A DNA stretch of 64,000 bases from Spiroplasma cantharicola. GTDB lineage: Bacteria; Bacillota_I; Bacilli_A; Mycoplasmatales; Mycoplasmataceae. Positions 7,050 through 64,000 of the stretch are shown piece by piece. Location of the stretch: NCBI RefSeq assembly GCF_001281045.1, contig NZ_CP012622.1, positions 186,001 through 250,000 on the forward strand. The letters run 5' to 3'. Each line of letters begins with the position of its first letter. Positions within the stretch are counted from its first letter, which is position 1. The notes beneath the pieces are model-generated. The model searched no databases. It was not told where the DNA came from and was given only the letters and a program-made list of their open reading frames with translations. Position numbers and translations under genes: made by a program.

Positions 7050-7081
7050 AAAAACCGCTTTTTAATTGAGCGGTTTTTTTA
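7049..7081. terminator. Terminator after gpmI, also at the end of lipoprotein copy 1
   Basis: AAACCGCT/AGCGGTTT hairpin with seven to eight T residues following it on the plus strand. The minus-strand stop codon of lipoprotein copy 1 (7079-7081) lies in the T-run. The A-rich left flank lets the hairpin also end transcripts coming from the right. Confidence 0.85.
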
Positions 7082-7633
7082 TTTTGAAGTAGAAGCATTT
7101 GGGTTTTCTTGGATTCCTCAATCGTACATTTTTTTTATGTGCTCTTTTGTTTTATCATTAGAGAATTCATTTTTAAGAGCTAATGATAAACTATGATTGA
7201 ATATTTTTTTATCTTGGGCCCTTAATGTTTCTTTTACTCCGTTGTTTGTTACTAGTTCTTTCTTATAATTTTTATCAAATTGATATATTTTATATTCGTA
7301 TACTGACATTCAAAATATATATATTGTGCTCTTTTGAGATTCCATTGAATTGTGATTAAATTTAATTCTTTCAATATCTTGCTCATCTTTTTTTAGATTG
7401 TCTCAATCAATTTTTATTTTGTGCTCAGCTCATTCTTTGTATGCTTGAACTAAAAAATCTTCATTTTTGTCAACAGCTAGTTTGAAATTAGTTTCAATTT
7501 CTTCGATGTTTTTTGGTTGCTCTGTTGGTATAAAATAGTCTTCATCTTCAATTTCAGGTGTACAGCTAATTATGTTTAAACTTGGTATAGCTGTTAATGA
7601 AATAGAACAAAATGCTAATAATAATTTTTTCAT
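7079..7633 (-). CDS. Tandem lipoprotein, copy 1
   Basis: 184-residue predicted lipoprotein of unknown function, read as one frame with TGA as Trp. Signal peptide residues 1-23 end in LNIISC, with lipidated Cys24. The mature part opens with an acidic stretch (PEIEDEDYF) and then alternates helical acidic/basic segments. This copy differs by Cys9 in the signal peptide (Ser in the others), by ending in STSK rather than KV, and by a short block (7164-7183) that matches copies 4 and 5 while its flanks match copies 2 and 3, consistent with gene conversion. It shares the gpmI terminator. Confidence 0.85.
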
Positions 7634-7762
7634 AATTCACCTCTATCAAAATTTTACAATAAAATTAAAATTTTTGTGAAATAAATTAAAATATGGTAAC
7701 TTAAAAGTTTAAAAATTAATGGAGTGTAATATTATTAATATTTTATAAAGAAAATTATTTAA

Positions 7763-8311
7763 TTAAACTTTTGCATTTGGGTTTTCTTGGATTCCTCAAT
7801 CGTACATTTTTTTTATGTGCTCTTTTGTTTTATCATTAGAGAATTCACTCTCAAGAGCTAATGATAAACTATAATTGAATATTTTTTTATCTTGGGCCCT
7901 TAATGTTTGTTTTATTCCGTTGTTTGTCACTAGTTCTTTCTTATAATTTTTATCAAATTGATATATTTTATATTCGCATACCGACATTCAAAATATATAT
8001 ATTGTGCTCTTTTGAGATTCCATTGAATTGTGATTAAATTTAATTCTTTCAATATCTTGCTCATCTTTTTTTAGATTGTCTCAATCAATTTTTATTTTGT
8101 GCTCAGCTCATTCTTTGTATGCTTGAACTAAAAAATCTTCATTTTTGTCAACAGCTAGTTTGAAATTAGTTTCAATTTCCTCGATGTTTTTTGGTTGTTC
8201 TGTTGGTATAAAATAGTCTTCATCTTCAATTTCAGGTGTACAGCTAATTATGTTTAAACTTGGTATAGCTGTTAATGAAATAGAAGAAAATGCTAATAAT
8301 AATTTTTTCAT
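7763..8311 (-). CDS. Tandem lipoprotein, copy 2
   Basis: 182-residue paralogue of copy 1 with the same signal peptide and lipobox. It is a type-A copy: the segment after residue 127 reads RAQDKKIFN followed by SLSLALESEF. Residue 125 is Gln here. The terminator hairpin found downstream of copies 3-5 is missing after this copy, so its transcript may read into copy 1. Confidence 0.85.
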
Positions 8312-8433
8312 AATTCACCTCTATCAAAATTTTACAATAATATTAAAATTTTTGTGAAATAAATTAAAATATGGTAACTTAAAAGTTTAAAAATTAATGG
8401 AGTGTAATATTATTAATATTTAATTTATATAAA

Positions 8434-8462
8434 AAAGTATCTAGATCAAATCTAGATACTTT
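8434..8462 (-). terminator. Terminator of lipoprotein copy 3
   Basis: Perfect 13-base inverted repeat (AAAGTATCTAGAT / ATCTAGATACTTT) with a CAA loop. Read on the minus strand it is followed by a T-run. Confidence 0.85.
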
Positions 8463-8480
8463 ATAAAGAAAATTATTTAA

Positions 8481-9029
8481 TTAAACTTTTGCATTTGGGT
8501 TTTCTTGGATTCCTCAATCGTACATTTTTTTTATGTGCTCTTTTGTTTTATCATTAGAGAATTCACTCTCAAGAGCTAATGATAAACTATGATTGAATAT
8601 TTTTTTATCTTGGGCCCTTAATGTTCGTTTTATTCCTTTGTTTGTCACTAGTTCTTTCTTATAATTTTTATCAAATTGATATATTTTATATTTGTATACT
8701 GACATTCAAAATATATATATTGTGCTCTTTTGAGATTCCATTGAATTGTGATTAAATTTAATTCTTTCAATATCTTGCTCATCTTTTTTTAGATTGTCTC
8801 AATCAATTTTTATTTTGTGTTCATCTCATTTTTTGTATGCTTGAACTAAAAAATCTTCATTTTTGTCAACAGCTAGTTTGAAATTAGTTTCAATTTCTTC
8901 GATGTTTTTTGGTTGCTCTGTTGGTATAAAATAGTCTTCATCTTCAATTTCAGGTGTACAGCTAATTATGTTTAAACTTGGTATAGCTGTTAATGAAATA
9001 GAAGAAAATGCTAATAATAATTTTTTCAT
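8481..9029 (-). CDS. Tandem lipoprotein, copy 3
   Basis: 182-residue type-A paralogue. Private changes are Lys67 and Asp69 (AYKKWDEH where the others have AYKEWAEH), Lys121 in place of Asn, and Arg125. It ends in PNAKV and is followed on the minus strand by the hairpin at 8434-8462. Confidence 0.85.
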
Positions 9030-9149
9030 AATTCACCTCTATCAAAATTTTACAATAATATTAAAATTTTTGTGAAATAAATTAAAATATGGTAACTTAA
9101 AAGTTTAAAAATTAATGGAGTGTAATATTATTAATATTTAATTTATAAA

Positions 9150-9178
9150 AAAGTATCTAGATCAAATCTAGATACTTT
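9150..9178 (-). terminator. Terminator of lipoprotein copy 4
   Basis: Same 13-base inverted repeat and CAA loop as at 8434-8462. The flank differs by a 2-base deletion, which accounts for the 716-base spacing. Confidence 0.85.
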
Positions 9179-9196
9179 ATAAAGAAAATTATTTAA

Positions 9197-9745
9197 TTAA
9201 ACTTTTGCATTTGGGTTTTCTTGGATTCCTCAATCGTACATTTTTTTTATGTGCTCTTTTGTTTTATCATTATGGAATTCATTTTTAAGAGCTAATTCCA
9301 AAAAGAACTTGAATGTTTCTTCATTTTCGGCCTTTAATGTTCGTTTTATTCCGTTGTTTGTCACTAGTTCTTTCTTATAATTTTTATCAAATTGATATAT
9401 TTTATATTGGTATACTCACATTCAAAATATATATATTTTACTTTTTTGAGTTTCTATTGAATTGTGATTAAATTTAATTCTTTCAATATCTTGCTCATCT
9501 TTTTTTAGATTGTCTCAATCAATTTTTATTTTGTGTTCAGCTCATTCTTTGTATGCTTGAACTAAAAAATCTTCATTTTTGTCAACAGCTAGTTTGAAAT
9601 TAGTTTCAATTTCTTCGATGTTTTTTGGTTGCTCAGTTGGTATAAAATAGTCTTCATCTTCAATTTCAGGTGTACAGCTAATTATGTTTAAACTTGGTAT
9701 AGCTGTTAATGAAATAGAAGAAAATGCTAATAATAATTTTTTCAT
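9197..9745 (-). CDS. Tandem lipoprotein, copy 4
   Basis: 182-residue type-B paralogue. Residues ~128-153 read KAENEETFKFFLELALKNEF instead of the type-A segment, and the preceding linker has SIETQKSK in place of SMESQKST. The codon after the internal Met is TGA (MWVYQYK), so a standard-code reading breaks the frame there. Residue 125 is Arg. Followed by the hairpin at 9150-9178. Confidence 0.84.
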
Positions 9746-9867
9746 AATTCACCTCTATCAAAATTTTACAATAATATTAAAATTTTTGTGAAATAAATTA
9801 AAATATGGTAACTTAAAAGTTTAAAAATTAATGGAGTGTAATATTATTAATATTTAATTTATATAAA

Positions 9868-9896
9868 AAAATATCTAGATCAAATCTAGATATTTT
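9868..9896 (-). terminator. Terminator of lipoprotein copy 5, with compensatory stem change
   Basis: Same hairpin, but the stem reads AAAATAT.../...ATATTTT. The G and its partner C have both changed, so pairing is kept. Confidence 0.87.
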
Positions 9897-9914
9897 ATAA
9901 AGAAAATTTTTTAA

Positions 9915-10463
9915 TTAAACTTTTGCATTTGGGTTTTCTTGGATTCCTCAATCGTACATTTTTTTTATGTGCTCTTTTGTTTTATCATTATAGAATTCAT
10001 TTTTAAGAGCTAATTCCAAAAAGAACTTGAATGTTTCTTCATTTTCGGCCTTTAATGTGTCTTTTATTCCGTTGTTTGTCACTAGTTCTTTCTTATAATT
10101 TTTATCAAATTGATATATTTTATATTCGTATACTGACATTCAAAATATATATATTTTACTTTTTTGAGTTTCTATTGAATTGTGATTAAATTTAATTCTT
10201 TCAATATCTTGCTCATCTTTTTTTAGATTGTCTCAATCAATTTTTATTTTGTGTTCAGCTCATTCTTTGTATGCTTGAACTAAAAAATCTTCATTTTTGT
10301 CAACAGCTAGTTTGAAATTAGTTTCAATTTCTTCGATGTTTTTTGGTTGCTCTGTTGGTATAAAATAGTCTTCATCTTCAATTTCAGGTGTACAGCTAAT
10401 TATGTTTAAACTTGGTATAGCTGTTAATGAAATAGAAGAAAATGCTAATAATAATTTTTTCAT
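9915..10463 (-). CDS. Tandem lipoprotein, copy 5 (promoter-proximal end of array)
   Basis: 182-residue type-B paralogue very close to copy 4 but with Asp125 and NEFYND. Its upstream region keeps only the first ~35 bases of the shared leader before switching to unrelated sequence that leads divergently into the 939-aa gene at 10562. This copy therefore marks the edge of the duplicated unit. Followed by the hairpin at 9868-9896. Confidence 0.85.
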
Positions 10464-10561: not shown

Positions 10562-13381
10562 ATGAGAAAAAAAGAAAGTAACATCAAAAAATTTGTTGAT
10601 AGAATATTTAATAAAAATAATAAAGCAAATTTTAAAAGAGTTTTTTTATTAGGTTCAATATTTGGGTTTGTTTCGTCTATAACGTTAGCTATATCTTTAC
10701 CAATAGTATTAAAATCCAAATTAGAGCAGCAAATTTATTTTAAATTTGATAATAACTATTTTTCTTCAAAAGAGGAGATTTATGAATATTCAAAATTAAA
10801 TGCAATTAATAATAATTATTCTTTTCAAAGTAATATATACATGTTTGATGATGAAATATTCAACACAAAAGATGAGTTAGATTTATATATTGAAAATAAA
10901 TTTCAATTAAACGAAATTAAAACTAAAAGAAATCCTAATGATTATCTTATTAATAACTCAGGAGAATTGTCTGGATTAGTTAAAACAAGTAGCAATGAAA
11001 GTATTCAAACAGTTTATAAAGGAAATAATGATTTGACATATCTTTCAAAAAATGATGCTTTAGAAACTTATACAAATAATTTTCAATTGAATTATGAAAT
11101 AGATGGTCAACATTATGACAACATTTTTAGTGCCAGAGAACATTATTTAAATGTCAAATTAAAAAATCTAGAGTCAAGTGAATCAAAAACAATGTGTTAT
11201 GAGCAAGGGGGAATGTGTCAAACACAAGAGCAAATTACTTCTTGATTAAGAAATAACATTTCAAAAGGTTTTGAATACCAAGGAAAAGACTTTTCAAATT
11301 TAAATTATCTTGAGTTCTTAGATGCTATGAAAGATTTAGATGAAGAAATAATTAATAGGAATATTCAGCCAGTTTTAAATGCAGATAAATCATCATATTG
11401 AGTAACACAACATAGTAAAAAAAGTTTAAGTTATTTTGTTGGTCCAAAATATTTTGAAAGTAATGAGAATGTATCTTCAATTGCAGAATTTAAACCTATT
11501 AAATCTTATGATATCAATGCATTAATGTTACCTATATGAGGGTGAGCCTTTGCAATAATTACTACTGTAGTATTAGATTCAAAAATAAAGGATCCAATTG
11601 GAAGTGATTATGAAATGATGAATTATTTAAATAACACTTTTGAAACTTTAAATTTAAATAAGGAATTTTTAAATGTATTTAATAGAGATTTTTACTCTAT
11701 AATATCTAAAAATTTAAAAGATGATTTATCATATGGTTTAGCTGAAATTGAAGATAATGATTTAAGTGATTTTTATAGATTATTAATATCTTTTAAAAGA
11801 TTTTTGGACTTGACAAAAATATATGATTTATCAATAAAACCAGAAGAATTAGAAAAAAATTTAAAACAAATTGTTGTTGAAATTTTAAACTCCCAAAAAG
11901 ACTTCATGAATAACTTTATTGATGTTAAAGATAATAAAGAAGGCGCAAATATATTATTAGATGATAGTATATCTTTTGATGATATTTACAGTCTATTTTT
12001 AAATACATCCAATTTTTTTAATGATGGAGGAACAAAAAAAATTTTATGAGATATAGCAGAAAAAATATTTAGGGGAGTTGATGCTGTAATGGAAAAAATA
12101 GATAAAATTTCAGGAGCAGTTAAACAAGTCAGTGAAAATATTAAGGACTCAGAAAAAACTAAAAATAAAAATGAAAGTGAATTAGAAAAAAATATGCAAA
12201 AAAATAAGGAGATGATAACTAATTCATTAGTTAATAATGAAAAAGAATTTATCAATGCAATGGGTTTAGACATTGAAGAATCCAATCTTAGATTTTCTCC
12301 TTTGCTTATAGTGTATATTGCTCAAGCAGTATCTGGGGTTTGAAATTTAGGACAAATGTTTAGCTTTATAAGTTTAAAAACATATGAAGCTAAATTAGAT
12401 AGTAATCAATCTTTATATTATTTCAAACCAACATTTAAATTACCATTATTAAATATTTCTTTTGGTAAAGTAAAAGATCAATCTATTTATACTTTAAATG
12501 ATGCTCCCTTAAAATATTTTTCTCCATCAATAGATGGAAAGGAAATAAAAGAATTATATGAGTTTGATGGTAAGTATTATAAGGAAAAAAATAAAGCAAT
12601 TGATGACTTAAAATATTCAATTTACAAAAAGCCAGAAAATTACTTAAAAACAAAGCAATTACTAACTTCAGTTATTAGTAAAGATAATAACTATATGCTT
12701 AATCTTCCAAGTATTTGTAATTCAAACTCATCAACACAAGGCTGCTTGCAAAGTTATGAATATGAAAAAAAACTTGCAGAAGAAAAAGAAAAGTATATTT
12801 CAAACTTATTTAATAAATTTTATAAAGATAATGGAAAAGAGTATTATCTTGATGGTTTTGGTGGCGGATATGAATCAAAACAAATTGCAATTCAGGAATT
12901 GCAAAGAAAGGCTGATGACTCTTCAAATTACAAAGAAATTTATACTTATGAAATGAATAATAATAAAGTATTTAAAGAAACTAAAAAAGAAATTCAAGAA
13001 TTTATTAGAAATAATCAGATAATAGAATATAAATCAATTATTAATACTGATTTAATTGAAACTAGTTATTATTATAATTTAAAAGAAAATAATGGTTATG
13101 ATTTTAAAATTTATGAAATGAATTTTTATGGACAAAAGAAATATTTTAGATCTTATTTAGAAGCAATTAATTATTTAGATAATAAAATTAACTATCAAGT
13201 TTATGAACTTGATAGAAAACAAACAACTTATACATATAAAGGAATTGAATTTCTAGATGAAAAAAATTTTAAACAATGAATAGATAAACAGATAGAAATT
13301 GTATTTGAAAAAAATAATATAGACGGAAGGGGTAGTGAACAAAATGCTAAAACATATTTTAACAGTTTGTGCTATAACTAA
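10562..13381 (+). CDS. Large repeat-bearing membrane protein (939 aa)
   Basis: Unrecognised. A basic N-terminus is followed by a membrane helix (about residues 27-47). Then comes a stretch to ~310 with several copies of a degenerate ~20-residue motif: Tyr-x-Phe/Met-Asp/Asn-Gly/Asn, an aromatic, Ser/Thr-x-x-Glu, then a short helix (e.g. YEIDGQHYDNIFSAREHY). Second and third hydrophobic segments lie near 320-342 and 577-603. Between them is a hydrophilic, partly coiled-coil domain. The C-terminal third has more copies of the motif (YEFDGKYYKEKNKAIDDL). Two Cys pairs occur, C212/C219 and C719/C728. A weak GAAAGG-type ribosome site lies upstream. Its last 38 bases overlap the start of the next gene, so the two are coupled. 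Surface exposure of both repeat regions is inferred from topology. Confidence 0.85.
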
Positions 13382-48477: not shown

Positions 48478-49233
48478 ATGATAAATTTTACAAATGTAAA
48501 TAAAGTTTGACCTAATGGCAAACATGTTTTAAGAAATATCAATTTAAAAATAGAGGATGGAGAATTTGTTGCAGTAATAGGTTTATCTGGTGCTGGTAAA
48601 ACTACACTTTTAAAAACTATTAATGGTATTAATAAAATTTCTTCGGGAGAAATATTAATTAGTTGAAATAATAATGAAGAATACAATTTAAGTAAAATAA
48701 AAAATAAAAAATTAAGACAATTAAGAAATAAAATTGGTCTTATGTCACAAGAATATAATAATTTAGAAAAACAAACAGTTTTAACAAATGTCTTAAATTC
48801 AAGAATTTCAAAAGTAAACTTTTGAAGATCTCTTTTAGGAATTTTTTCAAAAAAAGATAAAGAAATAGCTCTAAGGTCATTAGAAAAATTAAATCTACTT
48901 GATTATGCATATATTAGAGCTGAAAACTTAAGTGGTGGTCAACAGCAAAGAATTGCTCTTGCAAGAACCTTATCACAAGAACCACAATTAATCATTGCAG
49001 ATGAACCAGTTTCTGCATTAGATCCAATACTTGCAAATCAAGTTATTAAAGATTTTCAAAATGTTAATAAGTCTGATAAGATAACAATTATTTTAAATAT
49101 ACATCATGTTGAGTTAGCACAAAAGTATGCTTCAAGAATTATTGGATTAAAAGATGGAAAAATAATTTTTGATGGTAAACCTCAACAATTGACTAAAAAA
49201 ATATTAAAAGAAGTTTATGGAGATAATTATTAA
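48478..49233 (+). CDS. phnC: Phosphonate-type ABC transporter ATPase
   Basis: 251 residues. Walker A is GLSGAGKTT (residues ~35-43), the Q-loop in MSQEYNN, the intact signature LSGGQQQR, Walker [13 protein letters not shown], and the His switch in LNIHHVELA. It ends 1 base before phnE (TAAAATG). No Shine-Dalgarno sequence lies before ATG 48478; a hairpin sits immediately upstream. Still, the N-terminus [20 protein letters not shown] lines up well with the family, so the start is kept. Confidence 0.94.
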
Positions 49234-49234
49234 A

Positions 49235-51847
49235 ATGAATAGAAAAATTAATGCAATTACTTCTAGAAATGTTTTTGCAATAAATGATAAGTATACAAAA
49301 GCTCCAAAGAAAACATTTTTTATATCTCTATCTATTATAGTTTTCATATTAATAATCTTTGGTTTCAATATGTTAGAAACAAATTGAGTTGAATTTTTTT
49401 CAAGTTTTAGTTTATTCTTTGAAAGAATTGGTGATTTAATTAGGTGGGATTGAGAGGACTTTCTTAAACCAGATACAGTTGGAATAGTATTTTTTAATAC
49501 GGCTTTATACTCAATTTTTATGACAATGATTACAGCCTTTGCTGGAACAATAATTGGAGTGCTTATAGCAATTCCCGTAGCAATTTTAGCAGCAGGAAAT
49601 ATTGTTACTAATAAATTTATTAATAATACTGCTAAAAGTCTTATTGCAATTTTTAGAACAATTCCAGCTTTTGTTTATGCTCTTATTTTTGTGGGATATT
49701 TTGGCCAAACAATTTTAACAGTTACAATTGTTTTATCAATCTTTACATTTTCAATTACTTCAAAAATTTTATTTGAAAGAATTGAACATATCAATACAAA
49801 GATTTTTATTTCACAACAAGCAACTGGTGCTAATAAAATGAGATCTTTTAGGTCAGCAGTTGTACCGCAAATATCAAATCATATTACATCAGCAACTTTT
49901 TATGCTTTGGAAACTAATATAAGATATATTTCTGTTATTGGTGGTGTTACAAATTATGGTATTGGTAAATTAATTGATGATTCAAGAGGAAATGATGATT
50001 GATCACGAGTAGGTTTTTTATTATTTTTAATTATTAGTGTAGTAATATTATTAGAATTAATAATATATGTATTAAGAAAATATATATTATTAGATAAGGA
50101 CTTTATTTTAGATGAAAAAAATCAAAAAAAATATTCAACTTTAATTAAAAAAATTTCAAGAATGAATAATTTAAATTTTTATATAAGATATGTTATTCAA
50201 AAGGACCTATTTTTAAATCTTGAAATAGCTAAGCAAAATAAAGACTTTAATTCAATTAAAGAAATTAAAGAAGAAATGAGAATTAAAAAAAATAATTTTC
50301 TATCTGATCATAAATCAAAAATGAAAAAAGATATTAATGACTTTGAAATATTTAAAAGTCAAAATTTAAATTCAAAAAATTGATTTATTTGAGATGCAGA
50401 GAATTCTATGAATGTTAGAAGAGATAAAATTTATTTAACAAATTTTAATTTTGAGGTTTTAAAATTAAAAGAGGAAATAAAAAGTAATTTAGATAATACA
50501 GCATTGCAAGAACATGAAACTTATTTAAAAAATTTAACTATAGATGAAGTTATTAAAAAAAATCCCAAAAGATATATTAAAAGATTATGTTTATACTTTA
50601 TTCTTTTTGCATTATTTTGTTATTCATTAACCTTTATTGAATTTAATATAGAGAGTGCAGAAACAATTAAAAATACCAATAATAATATAATAGAAATGTT
50701 TAAAATAAATTGATTGTCACTTTTCATAGCTCATGGATATGCACCTCAATCAGTAATTTATTTACTGTTTCAAACTTTATCAATTGCAATAGTTGGTACG
50801 TTTATTGGAGCTATCGTAGCATATGTTTTTGGTATATTAAGTTCAGAAAATATAGTCAATTACTATGTTGCAAAATTCTTTGTATTAATAACTTCTATAA
50901 TAAGATCAATACCCACATATATTTATGCAATTTTATTTATAGCTCTTGTTGGAATGGGACCTTTTACTGCAACTTTGGCAATTGCTGCAGGAACTGTAGG
51001 AATGTTAACAAAATATAATAGGGAAGTTTTTGATGATATAAATTTAAAAGTTTTATATCAATTAGAATCTACAGGATTAAATAAATTTCAAAGATTTAAA
51101 TATGGAGTAATGCCTCAAACAACAAGTAGTGTAATTTCATATATTATTTATAGATTTGATATAAATTTTAAAGAGGTTGCGCTTTTAGGAGTAGTTTCTT
51201 CTGGAAATATGGGTTATTTATTAAATAGTTATTTTGCAGATCAATTATTTAATGAATTTGGTGCACTATTATTTGGTATTATATTATTCACATTATTGAT
51301 TGAGTATATTTCTACAACTTTAAGAAATAAAATAAATTTAGGAATCAATCCTAAATATATTGATAAAATCATTCTTTTTATTAAGCATAAAAATTTTGCA
51401 AAATATAAAGCCAATGAAATTTTAGGTTTATCAAAAGCTGATTTTGAATATATTCAATCAGAAGCTTACTATGCATATATTAATAAAGTTATTTATCAAG
51501 AAGCAAAAATCATTTCTAAAGATAAAAAAGTTTCAAGAAGTCACGGTTGATACTTAAGTTATATTAAAAACTTTAACTTAAGTAATAATTTAGACTTAGA
51601 TTTACAAGAAGCAAAAAAAATATATAACAAACATAATTTAGAATATAAAAATCTAATTAAAGAGTTTAATGAAAAAAGAATTGATTTTATTCAAAAATTA
51701 AAAAATAGTAAAGCTGAACAAATTAAAGAATTGGATTTAAATTCCAAAAATATATTAGAAGATAAATCCTTTAAAAAAGAAATAAAAGCTTCAAAATCTT
51801 TTATTAGAAAATCAACTAAAATTAAAATTGAAAGTTTAGAATATTAG
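49235..51847 (+). CDS. phnE: Double-length phosphonate-type permease PhnE
   Basis: 870 residues, about three times a single PhnE. Two permease modules are fused. Module 1 (about residues 28-290) contains the coupling-loop region FISQQATGANKMRSFRSAVVPQ. Module 2 (about 450-700) contains VLYQLESTGLNKFQRFKYGVMPQ, the same EAA-like motif. A charged linker of ~140 residues lies between them. The C-terminal ~170 residues after the second module are hydrophilic and Lys-rich, probably cytoplasmic coiled coil. A fused heterodimer working with one PhnC pair is inferred. Many TGA-encoded Trp would split this gene under the standard code. Confidence 0.93.
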
Positions 51848-57867: not shown

Positions 57868-59676
57868 ATGAAAAAAAAGAAATTTATAAGTGATAAAGCA
57901 TTTTCAAAAAAGAAATTTATAGACTCTTTCAAAATGATTGGTGAGTGTATAAAAAGAAATCCTGCTACTTTTACAGGATATATAGTTTTTACAATTATTG
58001 ATGCAATTTTTTATTCATCAATGACAATTGTTGTTAGTCAAATGACAAAAAATATTATTAACAATGGTGAACAAGCAAATCAATTTTTATGATTTTCAAT
58101 GAGTTGAGTTAGCTGAGCATATGTTGGTTTAGGACTATTAATATTAATTGTAATTTTTGATTATCTGACAAATATTTATTCTGCATATTTTTCTAAAAAA
58201 GTTGAAATTTATTTAAGAGTAAAAGCTTTAAAAAAACTTGTTGAAGTTGATATTAGTTACTATTCAAAAAACCAATTAGGTTTAATTATGTCAAGAGTAA
58301 TTAATGACAGTCAAGGGGCAGGAGATTCATTCAATGATTTCTTGTTAAATTTATTATTTACAACTGTTAGTTTTATAGCAATGATGGTATTTATGTTTAT
58401 CTTAGACGTTAATCTTGCTTTGATTGTCTTAATGATTTTTATTGTTTTAGTAATAATAATTTGAGTTTTATTTATTTATTATCGAAGAGCAATTATCGAA
58501 TCAGTTGATGTTAAACAATCAATTGATGCAGATATTACTGACAGATTAATTAACATTAGAGCAATTAAAGCAAATGCAGCAGAAAATAGAGAAACTAAAA
58601 GAAACATGAGATTGCATGATAAATATGATAGAAAATTAAGTAAAGTAATTTGACTTCAATCTTTATTATCATTTTTCTCTTATACTTTTGCTTGGTCTCT
58701 ACCAATTATTACAATAATTGCTGCAATTGGACTTTATAAAAACTCTATGGATCCAAGCGAGTTATCACATTTGCTTGTAGCTTTTACATCAGCTACTAAT
58801 AATATTTTGTATTCTTTATTAACATTACCAATGTGAATGAGAGGACTTACAAAACTGTCTAATTGTATTATGAGATTAAATTACATTTATGATACAAATT
58901 CATTGTTAAATTTTGTAGATCAACCTGAAAAAGTAGGAGATATTGAAAAAATAACTTTTGATAGAGTTACATTTAATTATCCAGAATCACCAACAAAAAA
59001 AATATTGCCTGAAATAAATTTAACTTTTGAAAAAAACAAAAGTTATGCTTTTGTAGGCGAAACAGGTGTTGGTAAGTCAACTATTGCTAAATTATTATTA
59101 AGATTTTATGATGTTACTACAGGTCAAATATTAATTAATGGTAAAAATATTAAGCTATTAAACCCAAATGATTATCTAGATAAAGTAGGTTATGTTGAGC
59201 AAGAACCTCAAATTCTTTATGGAACTGTGATGGAAAACCTGAAGTATCCTTTCTTTGACAAGACTGATGAACAAGCAATTGAGGCTGCAAAAAAAGCAAA
59301 AATCCACAATTACATAAAAAAACTACCAATGGGTTATGATACAATTTTAGGAGAACGAGGTTTTATGTTAAGCGGAGGGCAAAAACAGCGTTTAGTAATT
59401 GCAAGAATCTTTTTAAAAGATCCTCAATTGCTAATTCTCGATGAAGCAACAAGTGCACTTGATAACGTGATTGAAAAGGAAATTCAATCAGAATTAGATA
59501 AATTAATGATTGGTAGAACAACTGTTGTTATTGCACATAGGTTAAGTACAATAAAAAATGTAAATGAAATTATTGTACTTGATAAAAATGGTGTTTCTCA
59601 GAGAGGAACATTTAACGAACTTAAAGAAAAAGAAGGTCGTTTTAAAAAATTATATACATTAGGTCTTATGAAATAG
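57868..59676 (+). CDS. ABC half-transporter (membrane domain + ATPase)
   Basis: 602 residues. The N-terminal exporter-type membrane domain has six helices (about residues 35-320). The ATPase domain follows with Walker A GETGVGKST (near 393-401), signature LSGGQKQR, Walker B LLILDEATSALD and H-loop VIAHRLS. It is expected to work as a dimer for lipids, peptides or drugs. The substrate is unknown. GAGG lies before the ATG. The PTS IIA gene starts 9 bases after its stop, so transport and sugar genes share a transcript. Confidence 0.93.
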
Positions 59677-59685
59677 GTGAGTAAA

Positions 59686-60003
59686 ATGAGCAAAATTGAC
59701 TGAGAAAATATATCGATGGAAATGATTTCTTGTATTGGAACTTCAAAATCTAATGCAATAATGGCAATTCGTTCAGCAAAAATTAAGGAATTTGAAAAAG
59801 CAAATAAATTAATGCAAGAAGCTGAAATTGAAATGACCAAAGCACATAGTCTTCATTTTGATATTGTTTCAAGAGAAGCAAATGGAGAAAAATTGGATTT
59901 AAAATTAATTTTTATTCATGCTGAAGATCAAATGCTAACTACTCAAGCTATTATTGATCTTGGAAAAGAAATGATTGAAATGTATAAAATTATAAATAAA
60001 TAA
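59686..60003 (+). CDS. PTS EIIA, lactose/cellobiose family
   Basis: 105 residues, all-helical EIIA of the lactose/cellobiose/chitobiose family. The phosphorylated His is in LIFIHAEDQMLTTQAI near residue 84, and IGTSKSNAIMAIRSAKIKEFEKA near the start matches the first helices. It needs a cognate IIB and IIC: a IIC of the same family begins at 62254, while no IIB is visible before the window ends. AGGTGAG precedes ATG 59686. Confidence 0.93.
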
Positions 60004-60023: not shown

Positions 60024-60983
60024 ATGCCAAAAGCATTTACAATAGATTTAGGAGCAACAACTGCAAAATGTGCTTTTTTTGAAAATATGAAAATTAAGCA
60101 AACTTTTATTTTTAAAACAATAAATAAAGATAAAATACTTGAAAATATTGCAGTAGAGGCGTTTAAAATAGCAAAAGAAAATAACATAAATATGAATGAA
60201 CTAGATTTCATTGGAATCGCAGTTTGTGGAATAGTTGATAACAAAACTGGAACAGTGATTTATTCAACAAATCTAGGCTGAAAGAATTACCCAGCAAAAA
60301 AAGAATTAATGAAGTTATTTAATAACAAAAATGTCTATGTATTAAATGATGCAAAATCTGCTGCTTATGGAGAATGAGCAATTTCTTTAAAAGGGAAGCC
60401 AGATTCTATGGCACTATTTACATTAGGAACTGGTGTTGGTGGAGGAGCTATTTTTGATAGAAAATTAGTTTTTGGAGATAACACTGGATTACCAAGTGAA
60501 CCTGGGCATGGTGGTGGATTTCAATCAGAGTGTCAATGTAGTTGTGGTTTAATTGGTTGTATAGAACCAGTATCATCAGCAACAGGGATTGAAAGAAAAT
60601 TAAGAGAGATTGGTTCAAAATCTACAGGCCCATTGGGTAAAATATACAGTCAATTAAATGGTGATATTCATATTATTGATATAGCTGATTTAGTTAAAAA
60701 TGGAGATAAAGAAGTTATTAAAATATTTGAAAATAGCTTAGAGCCATTAGCAAAATGTATTTCAGTATTAATTCATTTTTTTGATTTATCAATGATTGTT
60801 ATTGGTGGAGGTCCATCAAATTTGGGTGAACCTTTAATTCAAATTATTAAAGAAAAATTAAAAAATTACGTTTTACCAGACTTTTATTCAAGAATAACTA
60901 TCAGAACAGCTCAATTAGGAAATATGGTTGGAGCTTGGGGAGTTTATAAATATGGTATAGATAATTTAATAACAAAAAAATAA
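60024..60983 (+). CDS. ROK-family sugar kinase (glucokinase-like)
   Basis: 319 residues. The ATP site DLGATTAKCAF is at 8-18. LGTGVGGGAIFD follows, then the ROK metal motif EPGHGGG...CQCSCGLIGCIE with His and three Cys for zinc, and VIGGGPSNLG near the C-terminus. Probably phosphorylates glucose released from a disaccharide imported by the neighbouring PTS. TTG 60009 was rejected as the start because GGGAGG (60011-60016) overlaps it and ATG 60024 is correctly spaced. The last codons form part of a very long terminator stem. Confidence 0.93.
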
Positions 60984-61054: not shown

Positions 61055-62248
61055 ATGAAAAAAATATTATCTTTGATGGGTACAATTGGATTAAGTTCTT
61101 CATCAATTTTATTAACAACCCAAGTTGTTTCGTGTAACGCAACTTGATCTTTGGAATATAAATCAATTTTAAAAAAGGATGCCCAATCTATTGCTGAAAA
61201 TGAGTATTTTGATATTACTAGTAAAATTGACCTATCAAATAAAATAAAAAGAAATTTATTTTCATTAGATATTAATAGTCAAATTAAGAGAAATAATGCC
61301 TTATTGAGAGAAATAACTGATGAGTCATTAGAATTATTTGCAATAGCTAGAGCTTATTTTGATTCAATGGTAGTAATTGATGATGAGGGCAATAACAATA
61401 ATGACTATTATTACTATGTTCTTCAAGATAAGGAAATTTATGGTAACGCTTCAAAAATAATGAATTATGAATCTGAGAAAAGTTTTTTAGACTTTTTTGG
61501 AGATGAAATAATAAAACCAGAATTTCAGTCAAATGCTGCTAGATTTGCAGTATTGAAAAATAACTTAAAATTTACTCAAGCTTACTATGAGGTAATAACT
61601 TCAGATTATTCTAAACAAACTTCTCAAAATAAAGCATATATTGAAAGTATTCATGAAATGAATAAATATATTGAAGATGGCTTCTTTGTACCATTATTAA
61701 AATTTATTGTAATGGAAAAAGTAATAAGTGCTGGAAACTCTTTAACAAAACTTAAATTTGATAAAAATATTATTGAATATTTAAATGTTGGTCAAAAAGG
61801 AGAAAACACACTAGATAAATATATAGGTTATTGATATGATTCTAAAAATAAAAATACAAGTGGTATTTTAACTTATAATTGAAATTGTGAACATACATAT
61901 GAAAGCAATTTAGATTTAGATTACATGAAACTTTCAAACGAACAAAAAAAAGAATATCTAAACAGTTGAAGATCATGTGAAGATTATAAAGGAAAACCAG
62001 CAAATCAATTAAGTGAAGAAGAGGCTTTAAAAATAGATGATAATTTAATTAAAGTTATGTCATTAGGAATTAATAAAAATGATTCAAAAATTAATAATGC
62101 AATTGTTGAAAAGGATTTTGGACTTGAAGAAAAAGTTCAAATTGCTCCTAGAGTTCATTTTAATGCTTTAGAGGGAATCTTAAATAATGAAGAGGTTCAA
62201 AAATTCTTTAAATACGGTTTTCAAGAAGTTGATAAAGGGGGTATTTAA
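61055..62248 (+). CDS. Lipoprotein of unknown function beside the PTS genes
   Basis: 397 residues. Signal peptide with lipobox QVVSC (Cys27); the mature part is mostly helical with a run of Asn and Tyr (DEGNNNNDYYYYV, near 112-124). Two further Cys residues near 284 and 312 could pair. No known sugar-binding motif was recognised. AGAGTTGA is a weak ribosome site. It ends 5 bases before the coiled-coil PTS gene with GGGGG overlapping its last codons, so the two are translationally linked. A role in capturing the PTS substrate is inferred from position only. Confidence 0.82.
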
Positions 62249-62253
62249 TAATT

Positions 62254-64000
62254 ATGCAAAAGTATGAAAAATATCCTGAAATTTTTGAAGCAACAAAAAT
62301 AATTAAAGAAAATAAAGTAAAACTAAAAAATAATAAAAAAGAATTATTTGAATTGTCAAATCAGCTTCATCAAAAAAAGCAAAAATTAAAATTAGTATCT
62401 TCAACATTTAATAAAATTAAAAAAGAAAAACAAAAAGATATAAAAGCGAATTTTGATTTATCACTTTCAATTGCGAAATATCAAAAAACTGATATTAATA
62501 AACTTTATGATGATTATGAAAAAGAGATTGAAAATTTAGATACAGAATATGAAACAAAAAAAATTAACAGAATTGAAAAAAATAAGTTAGATATAGAAGA
62601 AACTAAAAGTAAAATCTCTTCTATAAAAAGTCAAAAGATTTCTATGAAATCAAAAAATAAAGAACTTAAAACAAAAATTAAAAGGGATTGAATAGATAAA
62701 AAAGCTTTAATTAAAGAAGAACATTTAAAATTAATTGAGCAATTAAAAACAATTAAGTCAGAAGTTTCAGCTAATATATATGAATATAGAAAAAAATACA
62801 AAGCAGAATCTAATGATTTAATGGAGAAATGAAAAAAGGATAATAATAGTCTTGCAAATATTGATTACATTTTAAAACGCCAAAGAAAAGTTAGAAGAAT
62901 TAAACGATTTCAAAATGAATTAGATCAAACTATTTATGATTTATCTTTAAAAATAAATGAAATCAGAATTTCATATGAGAATCAAATTAGAGAAGAAAAA
63001 TTAAAAATTAAAAATCAAAAACTTTTAATTAGATATAATGCAGGAAAAGCAGATCGATTGACTATTAAAATGACAGTAGATAAAGTAACAAATGCATCTG
63101 GTAAGCTTTCAAACTGAAAATTTATGGTGGCTTTAAAGAATGGATTTTTCTCACTTATGCCATTGGTAATTGTTGGTGCTGTTTTTATTCTAATTAATAA
63201 TATTGTTTTAGGAGCAGCAAATGGAGGGTTCTTTAACTTCTTTTACCTAACTGCTGATGAACTTGCAATTTTAGATAAATTTAAAACAGTTGGTTCTTAT
63301 ATTTGAAATGGAACTTATGCATTTTTTGGTTTTCTATTAGCAGGAGCAATTGCATATCATTTAGCACCTTATTATAAGGTTAATCAATGGTCAGCTGCTA
63401 TTGTTGCTTTTGTAGCATTTCTAATTATGAGTCCATCATTTTGAACAAGCATAGGAGTTTTTGGAACTTCTGGAATGTTTACAGCCATGATTATAAGTAT
63501 TTTATCTACTGTTCTATTTGGTAGGCTTTCACAAAATGAAAAACTTAAGATTAGAATGCCTGAATCAGTACCTGATGGGGTTTCTAAATCATTTAATATT
63601 TTAATTCCATATGCTATTTCAGCAATCTTTTTTGGAATGATAGCATTTGCAATTACATGAATTGGTCAAATCGTGGGAGAAATTTCTATTGGAGCTGAAA
63701 CAGTTACATTTATTGATTTAAATGGTTTGATAACTGTAGCAATTCAAAAACCAATGGTTAATGCAGTTTCAGGATTTGGTGGAATGATTGCTATAGTACT
63801 TTTATGACAAGTACTATGATTTATGGGAATTCACGCAAGTGGAGTGCTTTCACCAATATTAGAACCAATTCAATTAGATGGTCTTACTCAAAATCAGCAA
63901 GCACTAGCAGAAGGGTTAGACCCTGAATATGTTTTTACAAATCCATTCATGAATAACTTTATATTTATGGGAGGTACTGGTGGTACGATTGGACTAATTC
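62254..64000 (+). CDS. PTS EIIC (cellobiose/lactose family) with long N-terminal coiled coil, 3' end missing
   Basis: Continues past the right edge. Residues 1 to ~270 form a highly charged Lys/Glu/Ile coiled coil with no membrane helix (e.g. LDIEETKSKISSIKSQKIS near 115). From about residue 273 (MTVDKVTNASGKLSNWKFM) an ordinary lactose/cellobiose-type EIIC begins: ALKNGFFSLMPLVIVGAVFIL, FGFLLAGAIAYHL, LLWQVLWFMGIHASGVLSP and FMGGTGGTIGL. The frame is unbroken across the join with TGA as Trp. No start codon with a ribosome site is seen at the EIIC boundary, so it is a true fusion. Related EIIC proteins normally start right at the membrane domain. Confidence 0.9.

Follow-up and report, generated by a model that had tools for sequence, protein, structure and literature searches.

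A length-conserved, charged helical extension fused to a lactose/cellobiose-type PTS permease of Spiroplasma cantharicola

Why should a PTS sugar permease carry a long, highly charged helical region ahead of its membrane domain? We addressed this question in a 64,000-nucleotide stretch of the S. cantharicola genome (hereafter the window; C1:186001-250000 of G000, a genome of 1,179,577 bases), at the end of which a gene read under translation table 4 (TGA = Trp) joins a Lys/Glu-rich extension, here called the coil, to an EIIC domain. The gene, its parts and its neighbours are as follows.

57868..59676, + strand: ABC exporter-type protein, by appearance; first gene of a conserved block
59686..60003, + strand: PTS IIA, lactose/cellobiose type (PF02255)
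60024..60983, + strand: ROK family sugar kinase (PF00480)
61055..62248, + strand: lipoprotein with a weak spiralin-type profile match; adjoins the fusion on its 5' side in nearly every orthologous locus
62234..62242, + strand: probable ribosome-binding site AAAGGGGGT, purine-rich, before ATG 62254; read from the sequence
62254..64000, + strand: coil-EIIC gene, cut by the window end; 732 amino acids, with the stop 452 bases further on, at window position 64452 (full length, L004:4255-6453 of G000)
62254..63099, + strand: Lys/Glu-rich helical extension, residues 1-282 (from composition, a single-sequence model and the orthologue alignment)
63100..64000, + strand: first part of the EIIC domain, lactose/cellobiose family (PF02378 and PDB 3qnq matches)
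29 bases downstream of the fusion: IIB, 99 amino acids (PF02302)
second gene downstream of the fusion: MupG-family protein, 367 amino acids (PF19200 and PF05913)

A preliminary description of the window had proposed a single unbroken frame, and this is what we found: the frame from ATG 62254 runs without a stop to the window end and continues in the genome sequence to 732 residues. This openness is not due to chance, since start, frame and coil length are all retained in 13 intact orthologues of the genus. Using profile searches, we found that TIGR00410/lacE covers residues 282-703 of 732 with 283.6 bits against a cut-off of 236, that the PF02378 match begins at residue 296 and that the sequence matches PDB 3qnq (ChbC-type) with an E value of 2.9e-26. 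By these matches, the protein is a lactose/cellobiose-type PTS EIIC. As it falls below every equivalog cut-off, its sugar cannot be named. Its lactose/cellobiose-type partners, IIA and IIB, are present as separate genes; a C-terminal IIB, which the preliminary description had suggested looking for at full length, is absent from the protein and is encoded by the next gene instead. Scans of contigs for relatives returned one match, a 28%-identical EIIC of a Ruminococcaceae MAG.

We searched 20 genomes of the genus, including that of S. cantharicola, for orthologues. An intact, full-length orthologue with the same extension was found in 13 of them and a broken copy in 2 (G015 and G018), while the remaining 5 had no match to the coil model. 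The expectation that the fusion would be shared across species was thus confirmed, with coil and EIIC lying in one frame in all 13 intact orthologues; close homologues beginning at the EIIC boundary were also looked for, and none of the orthologues starts there. Coil and EIIC are therefore a true single-frame fusion. Across the intact orthologues, the length of the coil is nearly constant: in 13/13, 285 or 286 residues separate the start codon from the motif at the EIIC edge, which reads SNWK in most, and the alignment of the intact orthologues contains 1 gap column in 282 over the coil, compared with 14 in 39 over the C-terminal tail. The coil nevertheless changes faster than EIIC, with mean pairwise identities of 41% and 67%, respectively. 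In the closest pair, dN/dS was 0.15 for the coil and 0.07 for EIIC and, by this measure, both parts are under purifying selection; values from distant pairs (up to 0.67) are unreadable since synonymous change is near saturation. Among the broken copies, that of G018 is disrupted at several places, and that of G015 carries a stop inside EIIC together with an in-frame loss of 50 residues from the coil, as if coil length were no longer guarded once the gene was broken.

Beyond the genus, the coil model matched in only 19 of the 248 genomes of the order that were searched. These comprise the 15 genomes of the genus and G025, G050, G033 and G046. The matches in G025 and G050 are EIICs with N-terminal coils from two further genera, and those in G033 and G046 are weak (E value of 3e-4) and fall on a coil attached to an ABC permease.

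The extension is highly charged and nearly free of proline and glycine, with 60 Lys, 12 Arg, 28 Glu and 16 Asp, a single Pro and a single Gly among residues 1-282 and a net charge of +28. In the AlphaFold check that the preliminary description had suggested, AlphaFold2 run without an alignment predicted two long helices (residues 8-195 and 201-290, separated by a break at 196-200; mean pLDDT of 83), although the packing of the helices cannot be read from this model because no alignment was used and pTM was 0.28. A single-sequence model of the 582 residues encoded within the window gave nearly the same two helices, its EIIC part being unusable (pLDDT of 49). Hydrophobic residues over positions 1-195 recur with a best period of 3.60, above all 300 shuffles; local periods are mixed, at 3.42-3.68 residues (3.4-3.7 when rounded), and residues 200-262 gave no periodic signal. 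Residues 1-195 could plausibly form a long amphipathic helix able to enter coiled coils of mixed register. The earlier designation as a coiled coil is plausible, although, with a mixed period that is absent over 200-262, the region may depart from the canonical form. The proposed cytoplasmic placement is borne out insofar as the coil sits on the end expected to be cytoplasmic.

Conservation along the coil, assessed in the 13 intact orthologues, peaks in three stretches, namely the tip (residues 1-15), residues 46-90 and the part between 211 and the membrane; it is lowest at 121-195. The motif A-K-Y-x-K-x-D-I-N-K-L-Y belongs to the first two of these stretches taken together, and about a dozen residues of the coil are invariant, including K42, Y76, W146, Y228, Y261 and N262. 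Comparison with solved proteins using phmmer yielded a best E value of 0.006, to unrelated helical proteins, and Foldseek returned 0 matches to the single-sequence coil model.

The preliminary description assumed that EIICs of this type start at their first membrane segment. To place the fusion among its relatives, we assembled a set of lactose-type EIICs of this bacterial family and determined how much of each protein lies outside the EIIC domain. Among 77 nearly complete proteins, 22 have an N-terminal extension of at least 120 residues, 29 have a C-terminal extension of at least 80 residues and 9 have a fused IIB, with 17 showing none of these features; the assumption thus fails in this family, in which N- or C-terminal helical appendages are common. 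In a quick EIIC tree, the 13 orthologues form one group (SH-aLRT of 97) with another six N-coil EIICs, drawn from G025, G047, G050 and G051 in three other genera; the edges of this group are uncertain because of very long branches. A second N-coil group, comprising a 622-residue paralogue from the S. cantharicola genome, L025 and L109, lies elsewhere in the tree, and C-terminal coils appear at several places. On this sequence comparison, appended rods recur on transporters of the family, and the coil-EIIC fusion is a well-conserved instance.

Further appendages and related loci were recorded. In S. cantharicola, a nucleoside-type ABC system includes, as its first permease (L188:1578-3281), a protein with a charged C-terminal coil of ~200 residues; in L185, L186, L187, L100 and L101, the coils of such permeases span roughly 200-400 residues and vary in length between species. 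In L067, L072, L074-L081 and their relatives, the EIIC halves are split by an insertion of ~130-180 residues and followed by a C-terminal coil of ~85-196 residues. In another genus, two N-coil EIICs lie near each other in one operon in both L117 (G050) and L120 (G051), with coils of 250 to 346 residues. In L066, L071, L073 and L111, EIIC is followed by a C-terminal helical linker and then by a conserved domain of small size that carries the motif Y-G-G-Y-K-I-R-I-[DN]-G-K-T-V-A. The locus of the 622-residue paralogue (L161:8545-13570, - strand, G000) also contains a MupG-family gene, a lactose-type IIA, a regulator resembling RpiR by appearance and a weak match to a BadF-type kinase. Within the window, a protein of 876 residues is encoded at 49217-51847 (+ strand); about eight membrane segments are predicted in it, and 282 of its residues are coil-like. 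Another, of 939 residues at 10562-13381 (+ strand), has two membrane segments and 298 coil-like residues. Positions 7079-10463 (- strand) hold a tandem array of five lipoprotein-like genes, each of 182-184 residues and set ~717 bases apart, which share nearly identical first 25 residues and the same charged stretch at 41-172. Lastly, the operons of the broken copies are themselves decaying (L151 in G015 and L153 in G018), with stops in EIIC or the coil and a split lipoprotein gene; in L153, the MupG-family gene is also split.

We favour, with roughly even confidence, a model in which the coil forms a fixed-length stalk in the cytoplasm and, by associating with itself or with a partner, clusters or tethers the permease. 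Two long helices would make up a rod on the cytoplasmic N-terminus of a lactose/cellobiose-family EIIC. If EIIC is dimeric, as ChbC is, each dimer would hold two rods in the cytoplasm, and the amphipathic faces of these rods could pack together or against a partner. The tip (1-15 and ~46-90) and the membrane-proximal part (~211-285) would serve as contact regions and the variable middle as a spacer, so that the permease would be clustered or tethered at a fixed distance from the membrane. As a transporter, the permease would take up a sugar (probably a disaccharide) and phosphorylate it via the separate IIA and IIB, and the MupG-family enzyme and ROK kinase would process the imported sugar. 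Since similar appendages are found on other EIIC groups and on an ABC permease, a general cytoplasmic role is suggested for the coil, as opposed to one in the chemistry of phosphotransfer.

The main rival to the stalk, which we consider rather unlikely, is that the coil is a scaffold on which IIB and IIA, as separate proteins, or else the ROK kinase or the MupG-family enzyme would dock, so that the phosphate relay stays close to the permease. Such docking is allowed by the operon context, as the IIA, ROK, IIB and MupG-family genes share the block at most orthologous loci. IIA proteins of the lactose/cellobiose type are helical bundles. Moreover, a long N-terminal coil and a fused C-terminal IIB never occur together in the collected EIICs. 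However, coils of like character are found on ABC permeases, whose transport involves neither IIA nor IIB, the S. cantharicola genome also encodes a coil-less EIIC beside an IIB-like gene, and the G003 orthologue retains its coil with no IIA, IIB, ROK or MupG match within ~5 kb on each side. The spread of rods over unrelated permeases favours the stalk over IIA/IIB docking.

Alternatively, the coil might function only weakly, as a spacer or steric bumper, and owe its fixation to lineage history with no binding role. The coil evolves faster than EIIC and, its length and a dozen invariant residues aside, may be only weakly constrained; this would fit such a part, as would the many family appendages of differing length and position and the 5 genomes of the genus without a coil-model match. 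We judge this unlikely: insertions and deletions are nearly absent over 282 residues in 13 species, yet a decaying copy has a deletion, and invariant residues such as K42, Y76, W146, Y228, Y261 and N262 persist.

Among specific forms of tethering, the rods might link permeases, each at a set distance, to the cytoskeletal ribbon inside the cell (fibril/MreB) or arrange them in order along its length, a proposal that we regard as quite improbable. MreB matches occur in several copies in the genus of S. cantharicola and are strong (E value of about 1e-128) in some genera; in other genera they are much weaker (E values of 1e-19 to 1e-61) and probably reflect other actin-fold proteins such as DnaK. 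Among the EIICs collected from the weak-MreB genera, none carries an appendage of more than 100 residues except a fused IIB, but these EIICs are too few and too related to weigh on the proposal. Should the rods interact with the cytoskeleton or among themselves, the coupling of membrane to ribbon in wall-less helical cells would become testable with defined proteins.

That coil and EIIC are made apart via an internal start at the junction is scarcely credible, as the sole indication, a weak 4-base Shine-Dalgarno-like match (AAAG) before TTG 63058, is limited to S. cantharicola, none of the other orthologues pairs such a match with a candidate start at the junction, and no free-standing coil protein was present among the coil-model matches read from the 248 genomes of the order. 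The preliminary description had seen no ribosome site near 63071; this stands in that ATG 63070 is not conserved, being replaced by other codons in other orthologues, and is qualified by the AAAG of this one species. We accordingly rejected a separate start at either codon. Purine-rich motifs do precede most orthologous start codons, and that of the fusion, AAAGGGGGT, falls within the 3' end of the lipoprotein gene.

Our literature search, which left most subscription journals outside its reach, found no account of coil-bearing EIICs or permeases in Spiroplasma. Length-constrained cytoplasmic rods on several unrelated permeases of one bacterial family suggest a way of organising membrane transporters that is, as far as we found, undescribed. 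Among known systems, MurP-MupG of Staphylococcus aureus likewise pairs its PTS permease with a phosphoglycosidase of the MupG family (DUF871) in one operon; the family was defined in S. aureus, where its member hydrolyses MurNAc-6-phosphate-GlcNAc (PMC6262408). The present locus differs in having a lactose-family EIIC with a separate IIB, in a lineage taken as wall-less. A search of the S. cantharicola genome for the MurQ etherase (TIGR00274) gave no match, while control profiles did match. Given these differences and the lack of a MurQ match, the substrate is probably not that of MurP-MupG. Like other lactose/cellobiose-family EIICs (TIGR00410; PF02378; 3qnq), the fusion contains the whole EIIC domain and lies adjacent to matching separate IIA and IIB genes; unlike them, it has ~280 extra N-terminal residues. 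Its closest parallels in architecture are the 622-residue paralogue and the 683- to 830-residue C-coil EIICs of the family, which also join EIIC to a long charged helical appendage; they differ in lying on other branches of the tree, in having shorter or C-terminal coils and, in some cases, in carrying a large insert.
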